A stretch of 45,760 bases of DNA from Acidobacteriota bacterium (GTDB lineage Bacteria; Acidobacteriota; Terriglobia; Terriglobales; Acidobacteriaceae), in NCBI GenBank assembly GCA_003225005.1, contig QIAN01000008.1:1-45760 (forward strand), given 5' to 3'. Position 1 is the first letter of the stretch; every line of letters starts with the position of its first letter. Positions 15,384-42,245 of this stretch are shown here, in pieces. A model generated the notes under the pieces. It made no database searches, was not told the DNA's origin, and worked only from the letters and a program-made list of their open reading frames with translations. Both the position numbers and the translations under genes were made by a program.

Positions 15384-17150
15384 CTAAGGTTCACGCCGGA
15401 CTCTCAGGTTCCGCAGGCGAACGCTCGCGGATTGGCGTATATCGAGAAACCTCCACAGAATGAGAACAAACATACTGAGCACGGAAATCCACGCTCCCGC
15501 AGTGCGGTCCCATGTCCGCATGAACTTGATCTCCACGCGATTCGCTCCGCGGCCGACCGGAACCAGCATCTGGCCAGTGCCTTCCCGCGCTGTGGCTTGC
15601 ACCGGTTGTCCATTTACTTCTGCTCGCCACGCCGGATAGTGAAATAGATGCAAAGCCAGATTCGCGGGAGCAGACATCTTCGCGGTAAAAAGTTTGGACT
15701 GGGGTCCCCACTCGAAAACGTGAATAGCGGCATTTGCCGGACCATCGACGGTGACGAGGCGCGCACCCTTGTCGACATTGGAGACGTCAGCGCCCGCTGG
15801 CGTGTATTCGTCCGTTCCTTCGTAGCCGGAGCCGCTTGCCATGTTGTCCTCGATCTCGCGCAGGTCGGCGGGACCGTCCCACCATGGCGGCTGAATGTGT
15901 TGCCATCCGAACGCAATCACCAGAAGCGTTGCCATATAGACGGCAAGACGCAGGGTCCATCGCTGGATTGCCAGCGTAAGGAAAATGGAGAAGGCTACGC
16001 CTAGACATAACATCCAGCGCCAGGGAAACTGCATGAAGCGCAGCTTGGGCAGAAAGTTCCACAGCAATGCGCTAATCGGTGACATCAACAGAACAGTGGC
16101 AAGGGCCCAAACCAGACTGACATGCCATAATTTCCGACGTGGGCTGCGCCAGCAGCGCCGCGCCATCCAGGCCGCCACGAACGTCAACAAAATTTCTGCC
16201 AGCGCAACCCATGAAACAAGGTGATTGAAGGCGTCGTGATCGCGGTCGCTGGTCGTGCTGAACAGAAAGTTGTCCTGGGGACGCGAACCCGGCGAGATCG
16301 CCTCGGCGATGTTTACCCACTTCTCCTCATATACCGCTGGCACCAGATAGAAACTCGCCAAACCCGTACCTAAAAGCACGGCGGCTGCTCCCGTCAAAAT
16401 CAAACGCGGCGAGCGCCCCAGCCACGCCATCACCACGATCAGCAGCGCAAATGAATAGTGAACCATCACCGCCGCCGGCGCGTTCATAAGCCAGGACGCT
16501 GCCAACACCGCGCCCAGAGGAACAATTGCGCGACGTCCCTCACTTTCGGCCGCACGCAAGACCAACAGCAGTAATAGCGGCAGCAGGGAACTGGCGAGCA
16601 GCTCCGCAAACGCGCTCCGCCAGTAAACGATCACAAAATGGTAAGGATTGGCGGCATAGAGCGCAGCCGCAAAGACAGCATCCCGACGATCGAGCCATGT
16701 CCGCGCCAACATGAACATCGAGACACCAGCAGCCACCAACGCAAGCCAGATGTAGACACCCGAAATGATTGTCCAGGGCAACAGCGCACTGAGGGCTGCT
16801 CCGACGGTCCAGGAAGCAGGTGGGTAGAACACAAAGCGGGGTTCGCCGTATGCCCAATGCGCCATTGATGCCCAGCGCGGGTAGACGATGCCCCGCTTCC
16901 ATTGCGCCAACACTTCAAGCCATGAATAGAGATGAAATTCGAGGTCGTGTCCGGAAGGAGTGCCTAAAAAAAATGAAGGGGCCTCGACCGCGAAAGAGGT
17001 AGCGGCGATCGCGAGAAAAGGTCCCCAAAGCAGAGAACGCTTCGAAGCAGCAACGGAGTCAAAAGACGAAGTGGGCGTAGACTCCCCTTGGGTCGTCAAC
17101 TCTTTTCCTTCGCTAACCGCCAGCCGCCGCAGAGTTTCCCATTTAGTCAC
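15384..17150 (-). CDS. Large polytopic membrane protein, PTPS-related/GT-C-like
   Basis: The 588-residue protein has a polar N-terminus, about eleven hydrophobic helices, a soluble segment (about 425-550) and a final helix. The first loop has GHDLEFHLYSWLEV and YPRWASMAHWAYGEPRFVFYPP, a pattern seen in the membrane family named '6-pyruvoyl-tetrahydropterin synthase-related' (PF10131). That name is historical and does not imply pterin chemistry. The acidic loop residues (HDLEFH) resemble the catalytic loop of GT-C glycosyltransferases that use lipid-linked sugars, so transfer of a sugar or another surface-polymer role is possible but not shown. The start is a GTG without a Shine-Dalgarno sequence; TATAGA lies directly upstream, so a very short leader is possible. 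Confidence 0.8.
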   Translation of the reverse strand: MTKWETLRRLAVSEGKELTTQGESTPTSSFDSVAASKRSLLWGPFLAIAATSFAVEAPSFFLGTPSGHDLEFHLYSWLEVLAQWKRGIVYPRWASMAHWAYGEPRFVFYPPASWTVGAALSALLPWTIISGVYIWLALVAAGVSMFMLARTWLDRRDAVFAAALYAANPYHFVIVYWRSAFAELLASSLLPLLLLLVLRAAESEGRRAIVPLGAVLAASWLMNAPAAVMVHYSFALLIVVMAWLGRSPRLILTGAAAVLLGTGLASFYLVPAVYEEKWVNIAEAISPGSRPQDNFLFSTTSDRDHDAFNHLVSWVALAEILLTFVAAWMARRCWRSPRRKLWHVSLVWALATVLLMSPISALLWNFLPKLRFMQFPWRWMLCLGVAFSIFLTLAIQRWTLRLAVYMATLLVIAFGWQHIQPPWWDGPADLREIEDNMASGSGYEGTDEYTPAGADVSNVDKGARLVTVDGPANAAIHVFEWGPQSKLFTAKMSAPANLALHLFHYPAWRAEVNGQPVQATAREGTGQMLVPVGRGANRVEIKFMRTWDRTAGAWISVLSMFVLILWRFLDIRQSASVRLRNLRVRREP

Positions 17151-24907: not shown

Positions 24908-25411
24908 TCACAGCTTGCTCAGAAAATCCGTGATCTCAGGTTCGGTCCAATCCACAGCGCCGATGAACTTGCGGCGCATCACCCCGTTGCGGTCGATGAT
25001 GTAGGTCTCGGGAAATTTGAAGGTCCCGTAAAGACCGGGAGTCTTCTGATCAGGGTCGCGGACCGTAAGCAGGTTCGTGGTGTGATCTCGCACGAACTGG
25101 TGATAGCTGTCAGGGTCTACATCAACACTCACCGCCAGCACCGTGACGCCCTTCGATTTCATCCGCTGCTGCATCTGGACTAATGAAGGCACTTCTTCTA
25201 CGCAGGGCGCGCACCATGTGGCCCAAAAATTCAGCACCACAATCTGCCCGTGAAGCTGGCTGAGGGTGACCTTGCGGTCAGAGTCGTGCACACTGAAATC
25301 CGGGGCATTTGATCCGATGCGAGGCGGGCGCGTGCCGCTGTAGCACGCCGAGAGCCCAAGCCAAGCTGCCAGAATGAAAGCGGAGCGGGAGGAATCGAGA
25401 AAGCGTCGCAC
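24908..25411 (-). CDS. TlpA/ResA-like thiol-disulfide reductase, lipoprotein
   Basis: The 167-residue protein has a lipoprotein signal (ILAAWLGLSAC, lipobox Leu-Ser-Ala-Cys) and a thioredoxin fold of the AhpC/TSA-Redoxin type. It includes NFWATWCAPCVEEVPSL with active site WCAPC, the TlpA-family insert region, and FPETYIIDRNGVM with the cis-proline region. It should act outside the cytoplasmic membrane, reducing disulfides, for example in cytochrome c maturation. The start is a GTG with no ribosome site, 25 bp from the divergent glycosyltransferase start, and a TATTAT sits directly upstream. A leaderless mRNA is likely. Confidence 0.9.
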   Translation of the reverse strand: MRRFLDSSRSAFILAAWLGLSACYSGTRPPRIGSNAPDFSVHDSDRKVTLSQLHGQIVVLNFWATWCAPCVEEVPSLVQMQQRMKSKGVTVLAVSVDVDPDSYHQFVRDHTTNLLTVRDPDQKTPGLYGTFKFPETYIIDRNGVMRRKFIGAVDWTEPEITDFLSKL

Positions 25412-25436: not shown

Positions 25437-26522
25437 ATGGTGTCGGCAGACAGAGTCCCGGGGCGACCTGCGGTGTCGGTAATTGTTCCGGCTCGTAACG
25501 AAGAAACCTGCCTGGGCGCATGCCTCGAATCGCTGGTCGCACAGACCGGTGTGGCCTTCGAGATGATTGTGGTCGACGATCACTCCACGGATCGCACTCG
25601 CGAAATCGCGCAATCGTTTCCCGGCGTGCGAGTCATGGAAGCCGGTCCTTTACCCGAGGGATGGATAGGCAAGAACAACGCTGTGACGGCGGGGGCACGC
25701 GAAGCCCGGGGTCAGTGGCTCTTGTTCACCGATGCCGACACCCTACATCTTCCCGGATCGCTAGCACGGGCGTTGGCCGAAGCCAGAGCGCGGCAGGTTG
25801 ATCTGCTTTCTTATTCCCCCGAGCAAATCGTCGAGAGTTTTTGGGAAAAGGCTGTGATGCCGGTGATCTTCGCAGAATTAGCGTCCGCCTACCGGCCATC
25901 GGAGGTTAGCGATCCTAAGTCCTCTGCCGCCGCAGCCAACGGACAATACCTTCTGATCAAGCGCGTGACCTACGACGCCATCGGTGGCCACGCTGCCATC
26001 GCGAGCAGTCTGCTGGAAGATGTAGCTTTGGCGCTCGCTGTGAAGCGGTCCGGTAAAAGGATATTTTTTCGCTATGGCGGCGACCAGGTCCGCACCCGCA
26101 TGTATCGCAGCTTCGATCAACTCCGGGAGGGCTGGACCAAGAACCTCGCACTGCTATTTCCATCTCCAGGACGGCTCGCGCTGCGGCGAGGGTTGGAATT
26201 TGTCCTGATCGTACTCACTGTGGCCATCAGCCTTCGGAATATTGTGCGCGATCTGTGGCAGCCGGCGGCAGCATGCGGCCTACTCGCCTTAGGGTTGTGC
26301 GGGATTTTCTACAAGCGAATCCGCCGTGCCCACTTCAGTGGGGACGCAACCGTTCTCGCGCTTCTCGGCCTGCCGCTTTTCTCAGGTTTACTATTGCGCT
26401 CGAAATTATTTCACGACCACGGCAAGGTCTCGTGGAAGGGGCGGAGCTATTCCGGCCGACCAGCGGTTAAGCCACTCCCGGATACGCAGGAGAAACATGG
26501 TCTATCTCACGCGCAAAGCTGA
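25437..26522 (+). CDS. Glycosyltransferase family 2 with C-terminal membrane helices (HpnB/CrtQ-like)
   Basis: The 361-residue protein has a GT-A domain: VSVIVPARNEE, IVVDDHSTDRT, the DxD-type FTDADT, and a Q/R-rich acceptor block (SLLEDVALALAVKRSG, YRSFDQLREGW). Then come hydrophobic segments (about 250-330) that hold it in the membrane. Such layouts are seen in hopanoid- or carotenoid-linked glycosyltransferases. The acceptor is not known. Its 3' end overlaps the next gene (a pterin synthase) by 26 bp, so the two are probably translated from one mRNA. No ribosome site precedes its ATG. Confidence 0.85.
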   Translation: MVSADRVPGRPAVSVIVPARNEETCLGACLESLVAQTGVAFEMIVVDDHSTDRTREIAQSFPGVRVMEAGPLPEGWIGKNNAVTAGAREARGQWLLFTDADTLHLPGSLARALAEARARQVDLLSYSPEQIVESFWEKAVMPVIFAELASAYRPSEVSDPKSSAAAANGQYLLIKRVTYDAIGGHAAIASSLLEDVALALAVKRSGKRIFFRYGGDQVRTRMYRSFDQLREGWTKNLALLFPSPGRLALRRGLEFVLIVLTVAISLRNIVRDLWQPAAACGLLALGLCGIFYKRIRRAHFSGDATVLALLGLPLFSGLLLRSKLFHDHGKVSWKGRSYSGRPAVKPLPDTQEKHGLSHAQS

Positions 26523-26907
26523 GTTTTCCGCGTCGCACTACTATCACAATCCGGAGTTCACTCCGGAGGAGAACAGCCGCGTTTTCGGCAAATGCAACAA
26601 TCCCAATGGGCACGGGCATAACTACACCCTCGAAGTCACCGTAAAAGGCGATGTCGACGCCCGCTCCGGCTTCGTTGTCGATCTGAAGCAACTCAAAGAA
26701 ATCATGAATCGCGAAGTGCTGGATGCCATGGACCACCGTTTCCTCAACAAGGAAGTTCCGGAGTTCTTTACGCACATTCCAACCACCGAGAATCTCTCCA
26801 TCGCGATCTGGCAGCGCCTGGCCACCAAGCTGGAGAAGGCGCACCTGCACCGCGTGCGGGTCTACGAGACGCCCGATCTGTTCGTCGATTTCTACGGGGA
26901 ACAATGA
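26497..26907 (+). CDS. 6-pyruvoyl-tetrahydropterin synthase homologue, complete active site
   Basis: PTPS turns 7,8-dihydroneopterin triphosphate into 6-pyruvoyl-tetrahydropterin; the QueD relatives make 6-carboxy-tetrahydropterin for queuosine. The 136 residues contain zinc ligands His14, His39 and His41 (SASH, NGHGH), catalytic Cys33 (GKCNNPNGHGHNY), the Asp79-His80 pair (AMDHRFLN), PTTEN and the substrate Glu in RVYETPD. The CNNPNGHGHNY block and C/D/H triad match animal PTPS closely. The start ATG follows AGGAG and lies inside the end of the glycosyltransferase gene. An ATGA overlap leads into the paralogue. With folE and a dehydrogenase behind it, tetrahydrobiopterin synthesis is the best guess, queuosine the alternative. 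Confidence 0.92.
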   Translation: MVYLTRKAEFSASHYYHNPEFTPEENSRVFGKCNNPNGHGHNYTLEVTVKGDVDARSGFVVDLKQLKEIMNREVLDAMDHRFLNKEVPEFFTHIPTTENLSIAIWQRLATKLEKAHLHRVRVYETPDLFVDFYGEQ

Positions 26908-27332
26908 AAGCTTACCTCACCCGGCGCTACCTTTTTTCGGCCTCCCACCGCTTGCACAGCGACCGCATGTCGGCAGAAGAAAACCGCGCCACCTACGGCA
27001 AGTGCAACAATCCCCACGGCCACGGCCACAACTACACCCTGGAGATCACGGTCAGCGGGCCCGTCGACCAACGCACCGGCATGGTTTGCAATCTGGTGCA
27101 TCTAGATGGCTTTGTCGAACGTGAGCTTCTCGCTCGCTACGACCGCGAAAATTTGAATGTCCTCCCGGAATTCGTGGCCACAGTCCCTACGACGGAGAAC
27201 CTTTGCGTCGAACTCTTCAAAAAAGTGCAGCGTGGCTTCCATCGCGCGCATCTTGAAAGAGTGCGGTTGGAAGAGACTATGTTGAATTCGTTCGAGTACC
27301 GGGGCGGGAACGAGGACCACCGGATTTGGTGA
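26904..27332 (+). CDS. 6-pyruvoyl-tetrahydropterin synthase homologue, catalytic His replaced
   Basis: A second PTPS-fold protein, 142 residues, starting within the stop of the first (ATGA). The zinc histidines (His15, His40, His42) and Cys34 (GKCNNPHGHGHNY) are kept, as are PTTEN and a Glu near the end (RLEETML). The Asp-His of the catalytic triad is Asp80-Arg81 (RYDRENLN). The C-terminal segment also differs (SFEYRGGNEDHRIW). The protein probably still binds a pterin and zinc but should not run the normal proton relay. It may catalyse a different side-chain reaction or form mixed hexamers with its neighbour. The two copies share perhaps half their residues, so the duplication is old. Confidence 0.9.
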   Translation: MKAYLTRRYLFSASHRLHSDRMSAEENRATYGKCNNPHGHGHNYTLEITVSGPVDQRTGMVCNLVHLDGFVERELLARYDRENLNVLPEFVATVPTTENLCVELFKKVQRGFHRAHLERVRLEETMLNSFEYRGGNEDHRIW

Positions 27333-27377
27333 ACGCCCTTTTCCGAATCATGAGATGCAGCAACTGAAACCGTCACC

Positions 27378-27977
27378 ATGAAACCAACGACAGAGCCAAG
27401 CACCGTGACCAGCGCCGGCTTTGAAGATCTCGTTCGTGAAATGCTCGTGCGTCTCGGCGAAGATCCAAATCGCGAAGGTCTCACCCGCACGCCCGAGCGA
27501 GTGCGCAAGGCCCTGCAGTTTCTTACCAAAGGTTACAGCGAAGATCCGGAGAGCCTGCTCAAAGGCGCGCTGTTCACGGTCGGCTACGATGAAATGGTCA
27601 TCGTCAAAGACGTTGAAATGTTCAGCCTCTGCGAACACCACCTGCTTCCGTTCTTCGGCAAGGTGCACGTCGCTTATGTGCCCAAGGGTAAAGTGATGGG
27701 CCTCAGCAAAATTCCCCGCCTTATCGAGCTCTTTTCTCGCCGGCTGCAAATTCAAGAACGGCTTACCACCCAGATCGCCGAGACCATTCAGAATGTCATC
27801 GAACCCCAGGGTGTCGGAGTGGTCATCGAAGCCAGGCACTTGTGCATGATGATGAGGGGCGTCGAAAAGCAGCATTCTGCCGCAGTCACGTCAGCCATGT
27901 TCGGCTGCTTCCGCACCGAGGAAGAAACCCGGTCAGAGTTCTTGTCGCTGATTCGAAATCGCCCCAACGGCATGTAG
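27378..27977 (+). CDS. folE: GTP cyclohydrolase I
   Basis: FolE opens GTP to 7,8-dihydroneopterin triphosphate, the shared first step of folate, queuosine and biopterin synthesis and the direct substrate of PTPS enzymes. The 199 residues show [36 protein letters not shown] (zinc Cys and His), [23 protein letters not shown] and [14 protein letters not shown] with the second zinc Cys. The C-terminus [20 protein letters not shown] is complete. It lies 45 bp after the second PTPS gene in the same direction. This type is zinc-dependent FolE1, not FolE2. No Shine-Dalgarno sequence is obvious. Confidence 0.97.
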
Positions 27978-28159
27978 AGGTACTCACAAGATTGCGATTC
28001 GTATCAGGGCCTGACTTTCGTCGTGCCGTGCGAGCAACCGGGTCAGACGGCTTCAGCCACAGGGGTCGTCCACCGGAGATCCGTGGGCCTGGTTCACAAC
28101 CATGGCCACGCAACCACCGCAACGCGATAAGATTACGCCTCAGATGTCCGGGCTCCCCA

Positions 28160-28921
28160 ATGCCACGACAACCTTCAAGTAACACATTAACATCAGTCGG
28201 CAGGGAAAACTTATTGCGCGGGCAGATCGCGCTCATTACCGGCGCCACGCGAGGCATCGGACTGGCAATAGCCCAAGCCCTGGCCACTGAAGGCTGCGAC
28301 TTGATTCTCACTGGCCGCGGCCCGTCGGCCCTGGCTCGTATTCGCAGGGAACTTAGCCGTGGCCAACGACGAATCCTGGCTGAGCCATGTGACGTCCGCG
28401 ATCCTGGCTCTGTCGAGACTCTATTCCGGGCCACCCGCAAACAATTCGGCCGACTCGATATTCTGATCAACAACGCCGGCATCGCCCATCCCCATCTGCC
28501 CATCGATCAACTCCCCTTTGCCCTCTGGAGAGACGTGATGGCAACGAATCTCGACGGAATGTTCCTCATCACCCAGGCCGCTCTGCCGGTAATGAAGCGG
28601 GGAGGCACCATCGTGAACAATCTCTCCATCGCCGCCACGCGCGTCTTCGCGGGTTCAGCTGCCTACAATGCATCCAAGCACGGAGCACTGGGCTTTACCA
28701 ACACGCTGCGCGAGGAATTGCGGCCAAAAGGAGTCAGGGTCATCGGCCTCCTGCCGGGAGCCACCGACACCGACATTTGGAAAACGCTATGGCCGCAGGC
28801 GCCGCGTCCCAAAATGATGTCGCCTAAAACTGTGGCGGAAGCGGTCGTCTATGCGATTACGCTGGCCTCCCACGCGACCGTGGAAACACTCGAAATCCTC
28901 CCTACCTCGGGAACGTTGTAG
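28160..28921 (+). CDS. Short-chain dehydrogenase/reductase (possible sepiapterin-reductase-like step)
   Basis: A classical SDR of 253 residues: cofactor motif TGATRGIG, CDVRDPG, NNAGIAH, the catalytic Ser in NLSIAATRVF, and YNASK. After the first strand the residues TGRGPSAL carry an Arg, which favours NADPH. In the order PTPS-PTPS-FolE-SDR it could reduce the side chain of 6-pyruvoyl-tetrahydropterin, as sepiapterin reductase does. That is inference from position only, because SDRs are many. The start is uncertain: ATG 28160 lacks a ribosome site, and TTG 28214 follows AGGGA at good distance and begins right before the first strand. The upstream open frame to 27842 lies inside folE and is not coding. 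Confidence 0.85.
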   Translation: MPRQPSSNTLTSVGRENLLRGQIALITGATRGIGLAIAQALATEGCDLILTGRGPSALARIRRELSRGQRRILAEPCDVRDPGSVETLFRATRKQFGRLDILINNAGIAHPHLPIDQLPFALWRDVMATNLDGMFLITQAALPVMKRGGTIVNNLSIAATRVFAGSAAYNASKHGALGFTNTLREELRPKGVRVIGLLPGATDTDIWKTLWPQAPRPKMMSPKTVAEAVVYAITLASHATVETLEILPTSGTL

Positions 28922-28923
28922 CG

Positions 28924-28987
28924 TCCGACCCATGGTTTGTCCGACCCATGGTTTGTCCAACCCATGGTTTGTCCAACCCATGGTTTT
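28924..28987 (+). repeat. Four tandem 16-bp repeats with a CCATGG core
   Basis: The unit TCC(G/A)ACCCATGGTTTG repeats four times without gaps, with a degraded fifth start (gccgaccca). Each copy contains the near-palindrome AACCCATGGTTT. It lies directly after the SDR stop and about 70 bp before the DinB-like gene, where it could serve as a multi-site operator or be a replication-slippage repeat. Confidence 0.85.
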
Positions 28988-29054
28988 GCCGACCCAGCAT
29001 ATTCCGGATAAAATGACGACCGGTCTAAACCGACATACGACGGAGGAGGTACCC

Positions 29055-38806: not shown

Positions 38807-40525
38807 GTGGAGGATTTGCGGTTATCACGCACGGTCATCCGGTTTGGAACCTTCGAACTGGATCAGGACGCCGGAGAACTGCGCCGCGAGGGAAACAAGA
38901 TCCGGCTGCAGGAGCAGCCTCTTCAAATCCTGCAAATTCTGTTAGAACAGCCCGGCAAGGTGATTCTGCGCGAGGAACTGCGCAAGCGGGTGTGGCCGTC
39001 TGACACTTTCGTGGACTTCGATCACGGCATTAACAACGCAATCAAGCGGCTGCGCGAAGCCTTGGGCGATACTGCAGAAATGCCGCGCTACGTGGAAACC
39101 CTGCCCCGGCGCGGCTACCGTTTTCTGCACGCATTAGCGACAACTATCGCGGAGAGATCCATAGCGGTCCTGCCATTCTTGAGTCTTAGCGCCGACCCTG
39201 AAAATGAGATCTTCGCTGATGGAATGTGCGAAGAAATCATTAGCTCTCTTGCGCACCTCAAGAATCTTCAGGTCACAGCAAGGACATCTTCCTTTGCATT
39301 CAAAGGAAAGCATGTTGATCTACGAGTGATTGGGGAACAGCTTAATGTGCGAACCGTCTTGGAGGGTAGCGTCCGTAAGTCAGGGAACCGCCTCAGAATT
39401 ACGGCCCAGCTCGTAAACGCGGCGGACGGTTACCATCTCTGGTCTGAGACCTACGACCGAGAAATGAAGGACGTGTTTGCGATCCAGGAAGAGATTGCGA
39501 AGTCGATTGCGCAACGTTTGGAAGTAACGCTGGAGTCTGAACAGCGTCCCCTTTTCAGAGCAGGTACGGATAACCTGGAAGCCTTCAAGTTCTATACCCA
39601 GGGGCGGTCATTATTCTTTCAAAGAGGGCTGCGGCTCCTACCCGCTGTCGACTATTGCAAGAAAGCCGTCACCCTGGATCCAAAATACGCATTGGCATGG
39701 GCGGCTCTGGCGGACGCCTACAACATGGTCGGTTTTTACGGCCTGGCTCGACCAGAAGTTTGCCTACCGGAAGCCAAGGAAGCCGCACAGCAGGCCATCG
39801 CACTCGATCCCTCGCTGGCGGAGGCACATACCTCCTTAGCGACGTCGCATCTGCTCTATGATTGGGATCGCTCGAGCGCCGAGCGTGAATTTCTACGCTC
39901 CTTGGAGTTGCAACCTCGTAACTCATTGGCGCGAAGTTGGTATGGGCTGTTCTACCTGCAATGGATGGCAGGGCGTTTCGAGGAAGGGTTAGCACAGGCC
40001 AGCCAGGCTGTCCAGATCGATCCGCTTTCGGCATACGCCAGAGCCATGCAAGCGTTTACGTATCTGCCTGTTGATGTGGGCAAGTGCTTGGAGACGGCCC
40101 AGCAGACACTTCAAATCGAACCCAACCATTTTCTCGGCCATTGGGCTCATCTTCAAGCACTCAACTTACAAGATCGCTTCGCCGAGGCTGCGGAGGTAGG
40201 AGAGTCGGCGCTCAAAGTATCCGGCAGATCTGGGTGGATGTTGGCTTCCCTTGCTCGAACCTATGCGCAGCTGGGAAAGCGCGGAGATTCAGAGGCGCTG
40301 TATATGGAACTTCGGTGGCGGTCAAAACGGGAGTATGTGGCGCCTGCTGTTTTAGCCTATGCAGCGTACGCCGCGGGGGAGCAGGACGAAGCGATTCGAT
40401 GTGGGCAAGAAGCTCATGCGATTGGCGATCCTACTTTGATTGCAGCCAAATATTGGCCAGATTTTACCGAATTGCGCAAGGACCCTCGTTTCGGCGAGAT
40501 TTTGATCGGCCGGGGATGGAAGTAG
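38807..40525 (+). CDS. Winged-helix/TPR regulator (CadC/OmpR-type HTH), first of a tandem pair
   Basis: The 572-residue protein has an OmpR/CadC-type winged helix (about 8-108: FGTFELDQDAGELRREGNKI, LREELRKRVWPSDTFVDFDH, LPRRGYRF). Next comes a TolB/FlgO-like alpha-beta domain (about 117-245: IAVLPFLSLSADPENEIFAD, EGSVRKSGNRLRITAQLVNA, DVFAIQEEIAKSIAQRL), then about six TPR-like helical pairs (260-560: LDPKYALAWAALADAY, LDPSLAEAHTSLATSH, LEPNHFLGHWAHLQAL-like). No transmembrane helix links the HTH to the sensor, unlike CadC, so it is cytoplasmic. The start is a GTG. A near-identical architecture follows 1 bp after its stop. Confidence 0.9.
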   Translation: MEDLRLSRTVIRFGTFELDQDAGELRREGNKIRLQEQPLQILQILLEQPGKVILREELRKRVWPSDTFVDFDHGINNAIKRLREALGDTAEMPRYVETLPRRGYRFLHALATTIAERSIAVLPFLSLSADPENEIFADGMCEEIISSLAHLKNLQVTARTSSFAFKGKHVDLRVIGEQLNVRTVLEGSVRKSGNRLRITAQLVNAADGYHLWSETYDREMKDVFAIQEEIAKSIAQRLEVTLESEQRPLFRAGTDNLEAFKFYTQGRSLFFQRGLRLLPAVDYCKKAVTLDPKYALAWAALADAYNMVGFYGLARPEVCLPEAKEAAQQAIALDPSLAEAHTSLATSHLLYDWDRSSAEREFLRSLELQPRNSLARSWYGLFYLQWMAGRFEEGLAQASQAVQIDPLSAYARAMQAFTYLPVDVGKCLETAQQTLQIEPNHFLGHWAHLQALNLQDRFAEAAEVGESALKVSGRSGWMLASLARTYAQLGKRGDSEALYMELRWRSKREYVAPAVLAYAAYAAGEQDEAIRCGQEAHAIGDPTLIAAKYWPDFTELRKDPRFGEILIGRGWK

Positions 40526-40526
40526 C

Positions 40527-42245
40527 ATGTTTCGACGATCCCTTCGCGTCCGCTTTCGCCAATTTGAAATGGATGAGTCCACGGGAGAACTCCGCAAAGA
40601 TGGGATAAAGGTTCGCTTACAGGAACAGCCTCTCCAAATCCTGCAAATCCTGCTGGAACACCCGGGGGAGTTAGTTGCACGAGAAGAGTTGCGCAAGCGG
40701 GTTTGGCCTACCGACACCTTCGTGGATTTCGATCACGGGATTAACAACGCTATCAAACGGCTGCGGGAAGCTTTGGGAGATACCACCGAAACGCCTCGCT
40801 TTATCGAGACTCTGCCGCGCCGGGGCTATCGTTTTGTCGAGAGAGTCGAATCTGAAGAAGATAGTCTCCAGTCCTTGGCGGTGCTGCCTCTGGAAAATTT
40901 ATCAGGCGATCCCGAGCAGGAGTATTTTGCGGACGGGCTGACCGACTCGCTCATCACGCAGCTTGCCAGAGTCAGCGCGCTGCGGGTGATATCGCGCACG
41001 ACCGCAATGCACTATAAGCGTATACACCGTCCATTGCCGGAGATCGCGGGAGAACTGGGAGTCAGCAAGATCGTCGAGGGCACGGTTCAGCGCTCAGGTG
41101 GCCGAGTTCGGGTGTGTGCGCAACTCGTTGAAGCCAGCACCGATACGCACCTTTGGGCCGACAGCTTTGAACGCGATTTGCGAGACGTGTTGTCGCTTCA
41201 GTCCGAACTGGCTCGTGCCATAGTGAAAGAAGTCCAGGTCAAACTCACCCCACAGGAGCAGGCAAATCTCGCTCGGGCTAAACGGGTGGACCCAGAGGCC
41301 TACGATGCTTATCTCAAGGGACGCTATTACTTCTATCAACGCCGCGGAGATGCTCTACGAAAAGGTGTTCAGTGCTTCGAGCACGCCATCGACAAAGATC
41401 CAACCTATGCGGCTGCTTACGCCGGTTTGGCCGATTGCCTGTCCCTGCTCGGGTGGTGGGCTTTCGTCCCGCCCGCTGAAGGCTGCGGCAAAGCCAAGGG
41501 GGTCGCGCTAAAAGCGCTGCTTCTGGACGAGAGCCTGGGGGAGGCGCATGCGTCACTAGCGTGGGCCACGGTACATTACGATTACGATTTCGCAGTTACC
41601 GAAAGAGAGTATCGAAAATGTATTGAACTCAGCCCTCGGTATGCCACAGGTCATCAATGGTTCGGCCTCTATCTCACTATGGTAGGGCGCCCCGAGGAAG
41701 GCTTCGAGACGCTCAAGACCGCGATTCGTCTCGATCCGTTCGTGCCCATCATCAATGCATGTCTGGCAATGGGTTATTGGTTTGCGCGGAAACGAGATGA
41801 GCACATTGAGCAGTTGGAGAAGACCATCGAGTTGGATCCCAACTTTGCTCCGGCACATTGGGGCCTTGGGATCGGGTATTTGGAAAAGGGCATGCATGAT
41901 CCGGCCATCGCCGAGATGCAGAAATCAGTGCAGCTCTCGCAGCGAGCTCCCATCTTTGTTGCACTACTAGGCGAGGCATACGCGGTGGCGGGACGCAGAG
42001 AAGATGCGCAGAAAATACTGGATGAATTGAAAGAGACCGCGAAGCAACGATATGTAACGCCGTATATTTTGGCTCGAATTTATGCAGCGTTGAACGAAAA
42101 AGACACAGCTTTTCATTTGCTGGAAACTGCATATCGGGATCACGCGGCTTGGACGGCCTTTATGAAATCGGACCCTCGCGTCGACAACCTGCGCTCCGAC
42201 CCACGCTTCGGAGATCTGTTACGCCGTATGAAATTCCCGGAGTAG
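40527..42245 (+). CDS. Winged-helix/TPR regulator, second of the tandem pair
   Basis: Also 572 residues and the same order of domains: winged helix (about 9-109: FRQFEMDESTGELRKDG, REELRKRVWPTDTFVDFDHG, LPRRGYRF), TolB/FlgO-like domain (LAVLPLENLSGDPEQEYFAD, EGTVQRSGGRVRVCAQLVEA) and TPR region (DPTYAAAYAGLADCL, DPNFAPAHWGLGIGYLEKGM). The ATG lies one base after the stop of the first copy, so they are co-translated. The HTH halves of the two proteins are almost identical over about 75 residues, while the sensor and TPR halves have diverged widely. They may form heterodimers at the same DNA site. Target genes are unknown. Confidence 0.92.
   Translation: MFRRSLRVRFRQFEMDESTGELRKDGIKVRLQEQPLQILQILLEHPGELVAREELRKRVWPTDTFVDFDHGINNAIKRLREALGDTTETPRFIETLPRRGYRFVERVESEEDSLQSLAVLPLENLSGDPEQEYFADGLTDSLITQLARVSALRVISRTTAMHYKRIHRPLPEIAGELGVSKIVEGTVQRSGGRVRVCAQLVEASTDTHLWADSFERDLRDVLSLQSELARAIVKEVQVKLTPQEQANLARAKRVDPEAYDAYLKGRYYFYQRRGDALRKGVQCFEHAIDKDPTYAAAYAGLADCLSLLGWWAFVPPAEGCGKAKGVALKALLLDESLGEAHASLAWATVHYDYDFAVTEREYRKCIELSPRYATGHQWFGLYLTMVGRPEEGFETLKTAIRLDPFVPIINACLAMGYWFARKRDEHIEQLEKTIELDPNFAPAHWGLGIGYLEKGMHDPAIAEMQKSVQLSQRAPIFVALLGEAYAVAGRREDAQKILDELKETAKQRYVTPYILARIYAALNEKDTAFHLLETAYRDHAAWTAFMKSDPRVDNLRSDPRFGDLLRRMKFPE

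Follow-up and report, generated by a model that had tools for sequence, protein, structure and literature searches.

Organization of the locus

The 45,760-nt stretch of contig QIAN01000008.1 analysed here (the window) is contig 494 of an Acidobacteriota genome (G000; 7.9 Mb, 550 contigs, 99.73% complete), and its nearest named relatives are Candidatus Sulfotelmatobacter and further Terriglobales metagenome-assembled genomes. Two adjacent genes encode homologues of 6-pyruvoyl-tetrahydropterin synthase (PTPS), termed PTPS1 and PTPS2, and are followed by folE and by a short-chain dehydrogenase/reductase (SDR) gene:

26497..26907, + strand: PTPS1, 136 aa (Pfam PTPS PF01242, 1e-37)
26904..27332, + strand: PTPS2, 142 aa (PF01242, 5.4e-30)
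26904..26907, + strand: ATGA start/stop overlap of PTPS1 and PTPS2
27378..27977, + strand: folE, GTP cyclohydrolase I, 199 aa (GTP_cyclohydroI, 5.9e-76; TIGR00063, 2.7e-77)
about 28163..28921, + strand: SDR family oxidoreductase, about 252 aa (adh_short PF00106, 8e-54)

PTPS1 and PTPS2 each cover positions 2–120 of the 121-position PF01242 profile, and folE passes the NCBIfam equivalog cut-off of TIGR00063 (258.4 vs 181.6 bits). An initial annotation of this DNA had described the same gene order, strand and ATGA overlap, and Pfam agrees with it on the families. The genome search found the window folE to be the sole intact copy in G000; pieces of a second folE lie in different frames at C195:9220-9654, with a 31-residue piece at C247:12356-12448; they may stem from a damaged gene copy or from misassembly.

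Relationship to animal PTPS and QueD

PTPS1 contains the motif block GKCNNPNGHGHNY together with Cys33 (26593-26595), Asp79-His80 (26731-26736) and Glu124. PTPS2 keeps Cys34 (27003-27005) but has Asp80-Arg81 (27141-27146), and hence the catalytic His is missing. Both proteins carry a C-x5-HGH block. The PTPS-II residue set (C-x5-HGH, zinc His, Asp-His and Glu) is complete in PTPS1, lacks the His in PTPS2 and is jointly complete in the pair. Animal PTPS, the PTPS-II reference (rat 1b66/1gtq, human 3i2b), has the same fold, the CNNPNGHGHNY block, and the zinc His, Cys, Asp-His and Glu residues, and a fold comparison gave 42–46% identity of PTPS1 to the human and rat chains.

The solved structures closest to PTPS1 by sequence are rat (3.3e-37) and human PTPS (2.7e-34), compared with 5.5e-7 for Escherichia coli QueD; PTPS2 matches rat PTPS at 1e-31. 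QueD (6-carboxytetrahydropterin synthase, PTPS-I) and the dual PTPS-I/III enzymes share the superfamily of the window pair, but QueD has C-x3-HGH spacing, and PTPS1 (74.2 bits) and PTPS2 (58.7 bits) both fall short of the QueD family cut-off (TIGR03367, 89.25 bits). The placement of PTPS1 nearer to animal PTPS than to QueD, proposed in the initial annotation, is borne out by these scores. PTPS-III is marked by a Glu where the catalytic Cys would stand; the window proteins have Cys33 and Cys34, and Cys was present in all 129 gene-2 proteins of the pairs described below. The PTPS-I/III and PTPS-III types were reportedly described by Phillips in 2012 and Pribat in 2009, respectively. In a tree, rat PTPS joins two unpaired acidobacterial enzymes with low support (82/52). 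A structure predicted for PTPS1 by itself had low quality (pLDDT 71).

Complementary loss of catalytic residues in paired proteins

Pairs were compared across 80 named loci, four of which lack two full hits (L096, L101, L117 and L135), and across profile searches of the phylum. One search was an even draw of the phylum, in which 62 genomes matched and all but G177 and G263 (family f25) were retrieved; a second matched 179 genomes, from whose listed high scorers 31 new stretches were taken, leaving out f25 and other weak matches. Loci L041–L060, except L057, were excluded because many are the same assemblies as named loci. This gave 132 distinct pairs, of which 129 were readable: L115 and L136 are gapped at a key residue, and L224 (G099) is arranged otherwise. 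A tandem pair from family f55 (L254), the unlinked cases and the three-domain cases were counted apart.

Gene or domain 1 keeps the catalytic Asp-His, and gene or domain 2 the catalytic Cys, in 129/129 readable pairs. Gene 2 has lost Asp-His in 57 pairs, the window's PTPS2 (Asp-Arg) among them, and gene 1 has lost Cys in 11, always with the Cys kept in the corresponding gene 2. Neither half is complete in eight pairs, six of which are single-chain fusions. Within the genus alignment, Asp79-His80 of PTPS1 is invariant and Cys33 is replaced by Thr or Ser in single lineages; conversely, Cys34 of PTPS2 is invariant and its Asp-His is replaced by Asp-Leu, His-Leu, Asn-Leu, Gly-His, Asp-Arg and others. 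The substrate pocket follows the same division: Arg15-Leu16 and Asn128 occur in 116/116 PTPS2 and 0/116 PTPS1 proteins of the window's kind (genomes of the window's family, f1, and named loci), and the PTPS1 pocket is therefore changed even where the triad is whole, as in the window. As read from the alignments, the losses fall into two residue groups, one comprising Cys, zinc His, Glu and pocket and the other Asp and His, a division expected of a triad that spans two subunits. This pattern was missed in the initial annotation, which described the two genes as paralogues; they carry complementary triad halves and are more than redundant copies.

Both domains are joined in one chain in family f16 (five genomes) and f10 (one genome), three measured proteins having 289, 288 and 266 aa, and folE adjoins the fused gene in all five fused loci surveyed for neighbours. 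Domain 1 has Arg, His or Lys for Cys and, in five of six proteins, Thr or Ala for Glu, with Asp-His kept (the Glu124 column of domain 1 is unsure in L202, where the alignment shifts). Domain 2 keeps Cys and Glu, and its Asp-His has become Gln-Gly, Ser-Gly or Asp-Cys. None of the six fused proteins read has a complete domain.

Two kinds of protein at separate loci were found in five genomes (f36, f68 and f82). The Asp-His kind has lost Cys and carries Tyr for one zinc His, and in the Cys kind the Asp-His site reads Asp-Arg, Asp-Cys or Glu-Arg. In the f55 tandem pair (G183), gene 1 has Leu for Cys and gene 2 has Arg-Gly for Asp-His, with the C-x3-HGH spacing seen in QueD. Two f80 genomes (L255 in G409; L272 in G392) encode single chains of three domains, of which two are Asp-His kinds and the third is a Cys kind. 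Both genes of the f19 pair have complete triads, gene 1 already with a changed pocket.

Unpaired enzymes of this type, taken as controls, keep all three residues in 22/22 cases. Unpaired here means one match in the phylum draw (15 enzymes) or no partner among the matches listed in the second search (seven enzymes, of which those of G325 and G432 had a second, unlisted match). Complementary losses in two conserved partners, the signature sought for a shared active site, were found, with G385, G099 and G225 as exceptions.

Conservation of the PTPS1-PTPS2-folE core

The PTPS1-PTPS2 gene order is conserved far beyond chance. The two genes are adjacent in 28/28 genomes of the window's family in the phylum draw and in 22/25 genomes of the genus; of the exceptions, G021 has neither gene, and in G009 a contig end leaves just a fragment. 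Across 78 named loci the median gap is −4 nt (one of them, L101, is a broken-hit artefact), and folE comes next in 76/80 named loci, the remaining four stopping at a contig end. The same three genes occur in several families. An unpaired PTPS lies with folE in 7/7 f7 loci.

Upstream of the pair lie two further genes:

25437..26522, + strand: family 2 glycosyltransferase (GT2), HpnB-like, below cut-off
24908..25411, − strand: thioredoxin-like (AhpC-TSA/Redoxin) protein, divergently oriented

The end of GT2 and the start of PTPS1 overlap by 26 nt. GT2 is a frequent neighbour within the family, as is the divergent thioredoxin-like gene. G039, from another family, has overlapping PTPS1-PTPS2-folE with the thioredoxin-like gene and neither SDR nor GT2 adjoining. 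We define the cluster core as PTPS1-PTPS2-folE. A pterin glycoside role for GT2 was considered and set aside, the gene being HpnB-like, below cut-off and not beside the G039 pair.

Substitution history of the two halves

Many pairs are close relatives, and tree counts are therefore a fairer measure than pair counts. A tree of 102 tandem pairs was computed with the three key columns removed; its counts cannot separate gain from loss. On this tree the Asp-His state of PTPS2 has changed at least 19 times and that of the PTPS1 Cys at least 3 times. Taken by column, the PTPS2 changes number 15 at Asp and 19 at His, and zinc His, Cys, both Glu, Arg15, Leu16, Thr125 and Asn128 stay constant. In PTPS1 it is Asp-His that stays constant, with 4 changes at Cys, 17 at position 15 and 6 at position 125.

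One supported group (95/91) unites PTPS1 of f1, f3 and f5 with f16 domain 1, f19 gene 1 and a degenerate G099 protein. The Cys kinds of f36 and f68 group with an unpaired enzyme (98/82) rather than with PTPS2, and a tree joining all Cys kinds is rejected (approximately unbiased test, p-AU 0.005; the group was named after the tree was seen). Because of this rejection, the split arrangement probably arose at least twice, an estimate we hold tentatively since the proteins span only 135 columns and the branches are long.

A putative heteromeric PTPS

PTPS has, to our knowledge, generally been treated as a homo-oligomer, and the animal enzyme is a homohexamer with all residues present in each chain; here they are divided over two genes or domains. 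In rat PTPS, Cys42 and Glu133 reportedly come from one subunit and His89 from another, according to Nar in 1994; the rat enzyme was reportedly also described by Buergisser in 1995. Given complementary residue losses and a rat triad that reportedly spans subunits, we consider it likely that PTPS1 and PTPS2 make up a single heteromeric 6-pyruvoyl-tetrahydropterin synthase, with FolE supplying its substrate. Gene order, residue patterns, fusions and phylogeny were observed directly; the physical assembly of the enzyme, an interface geometry modelled on rat PTPS and the reaction are inferred. FolE would convert GTP to dihydroneopterin triphosphate; PTPS2 would contribute zinc, substrate pocket, catalytic Cys and anchoring Glu; and PTPS1 would supply the catalytic Asp-His across the subunit interface, the composite site yielding 6-pyruvoyl-tetrahydropterin. 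Each subunit would then be free to lose whatever half its partner supplies. That FolE and PTPS-II-type proteins form a coherent two-step module from GTP to 6-pyruvoyl-tetrahydropterin is supported by the recurrence of folE beside tandem, fused (f16, f10) and unpaired (f7) PTPS genes. The wider proposal is rather probable: Acidobacteria would have a heteromeric PTPS in which two polypeptides or domains jointly make up the triad, one with Cys/Zn/Glu and the other with Asp-His, obligate in several lineages, arisen at least twice, and existing in tandem, unlinked and two- or three-domain forms. Urate oxidase and GTP cyclohydrolase IB are also tandem tunnelling-fold proteins, but with other chemistry and 6–9% identity, and complementary loss of one PTPS triad marks the proteins described here off from both.

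Several observations weigh against this proposal. The intersubunit geometry is presumed to be that of rat PTPS. On stoichiometry, a trimer ring is not evenly divisible into two kinds of subunit; the predicted model of a fused PTPS resembles the side-by-side domain pairs of urate oxidase. The gene-1 triad is complete in 118/129 pairs and also in the window (Cys33, Asp79 and His80), where PTPS1 could work alone. The named loci were fetched with two patterns, one of which holds the PTPS2 Cys, a bias from which the phylum profile searches are free. Pocket positions 16 and 128 are not strict, since controls vary there (Tyr16 in 3/22, Leu128 in 2/22). G385 has a Cys kind without the His and no Asp-His partner was found for it; G099 has a complete enzyme and, beyond an intervening GT2 gene, a degenerate one (Tyr, His-Tyr); and G225 has a lone protein with neither half. 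In G002 the two genes lie apart, PTPS1 with GT2 inside one contig and no PTPS2 behind it, and PTPS2-folE-SDR at the end of another (L073, L072). The G002 split represents a rearrangement or a misassembly, and G401 is cut off at a contig end.

If the heteromer proposal is correct, these genes would offer a natural experiment on duplicated homomers turning into obligate heteromers, with stages from nearly redundant to strictly interdependent, and their various forms would be a naturally occurring series showing how shared active sites evolve. A site split over two gene products would also be easy to test here. Single-gene annotation, calling one copy active and the other dead, can misread such pairs. 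The pair would also point to an as yet unidentified tetrahydropterin in soil bacteria, half of the family genomes (14/28) having no match to phenylalanine hydroxylase (PAH).

Tetrahydrobiopterin pathway

The initial annotation proposed a candidate tetrahydrobiopterin pathway; in its standard form this would take the two PTPS as redundant copies and, beside FolE, the SDR as resembling sepiapterin reductase. The FolE and PTPS steps are supported as a coherent module; the SDR and PAH parts are unsupported, and we regard the pathway as a whole as doubtful. An SDR follows folE in 48/68 named, close loci whose DNA extends 2 kb or more past folE, and two other SDR genes lie at related clusters, one abutting folE at the fused locus L203 of f16 and the other ahead of the f19 pair. 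An SDR is present behind folE, however, in only 3/9 other genera of the family (g11, g13 and g18, not g10, g12, g14, g15, g16 or g17), besides its absence from G039, and in the window it is separated from folE by 185 nt, which is no tight array. The three SDRs differ in their best relatives, none being closest to sepiapterin reductase. Although 229 NCBIfam families match the window SDR, none of the 25 listed reaches its cut-off, and no sepiapterin reductase was seen among the 60 of 695 PDB matches listed. Judged by these comparisons, the SDR is an accessory, lineage-limited neighbour from a generic subfamily. Directly 3′ of it, at 28923-28996, lies a tandem repeat of the 16-nt unit GTCCGACCCATGGTTT (4.6 copies, 93% matches).

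Consistent with a biopterin pathway, pterin-4a-carbinolamine dehydratase occurs in 37/41 relatives, with two copies in G000, and PAH in 14 of the 28 f1 genomes from the phylum draw that have the pair. PAH (PF00351) gave no match in G000 despite its near-completeness, and matches in 8/41 relatives include just one among the 25 genus genomes, where the hit is partial and the assembly has 7% contamination. PAH therefore cannot explain the pair in general, and biopterin made for PAH, as initially suggested, is unsupported in G000. Neither SDR linkage, which is patchy, nor PAH was accepted as proof of biopterin. The redundancy assumed for the two PTPS copies is itself contradicted by their complementary residue losses.

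Folate and queuosine

Replacement of dihydroneopterin aldolase (FolB) in folate synthesis by a PTPS-III-like activity of the pair would explain its place beside the only intact folE, but we consider this improbable. In its favour, FolE adjoins the pair, and FolB gave no match in G000, with matches in 2/41 relatives (one partial) and 1/25 genus genomes (a partial hit), alongside HPPK in 38/41 relatives and 24/25 genus genomes. Against this, the sister family f2 also has no FolB match (0/14) and yet no tandem pair, and both window proteins have the PTPS-II Cys rather than the Glu of PTPS-III. Folate synthesis also has another candidate enzyme, since the G000 QueD carries a Cys-Glu motif (KCENPHGH), the mark of dual PTPS-I/III enzymes.

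G000 has three PTPS genes, the tandem pair and this QueD on contig C373 (L001), which scores 109.9 bits against the cut-off of 89.25 and lies 1.2 kb from queC; the radical-SAM gene between them has QueE as its best families, yet stays below their cut-offs. The initial statement that no queuosine gene is nearby holds locally and fails genome-wide, where QueD, the QueE-like gene and queC stand together. The genome search for queC and queE proposed there thus led to a separate cluster, and a role of PTPS1 as the queuosine QueD is ruled out by it. In a FolB-poor genus, the C373 QueD with its Cys-Glu motif is a candidate dual queuosine/folate enzyme. In family f2 (L061-L066, L080), likewise without a FolB match, a further short PTPS carries a YDRxxHGHDYE-like motif and lacks the usual Cys or Glu.

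Alternative roles of PTPS2

PTPS1 might be a working homomeric PTPS, with PTPS2 a pseudoenzyme, a regulatory partner or a catalyst of another reaction, and Asp-His not needed. The whole triad of PTPS1 in the window and in the 118 pairs agrees with this, as does its better conservation (mean pairwise identity of 79% vs 68% for PTPS2, 1500 sampled comparisons each). Nevertheless, across the 102-pair tree PTPS2 has no change at Cys, at any zinc ligand, at either Glu or in the pocket, a constancy that a pseudoenzyme would not require; PTPS1 has lost its Cys in 11 pairs, PTPS2 never; and the six fused proteins read hold no complete domain. We rate a homomeric PTPS1 as quite unlikely. Mere decay of gene 2 after duplication is very improbable: its Asp-His has changed many times and PTPS2 evolves faster (1813 vs 1037 total changes on the tree), but under decay 10 of the 12 active-site columns examined would not have stayed fully intact, nor would 28/28 family genomes of the phylum draw still have the pair.

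Other features of the window

A membrane protein encoded at 15384-17150 on the − strand has a weak match to PF10131 'PTPS_related' (2.9e-9). At 38807-42245 on the + strand, two adjoining proteins of 572 aa each combine a transcription-regulator C-terminal domain with TPR repeats.

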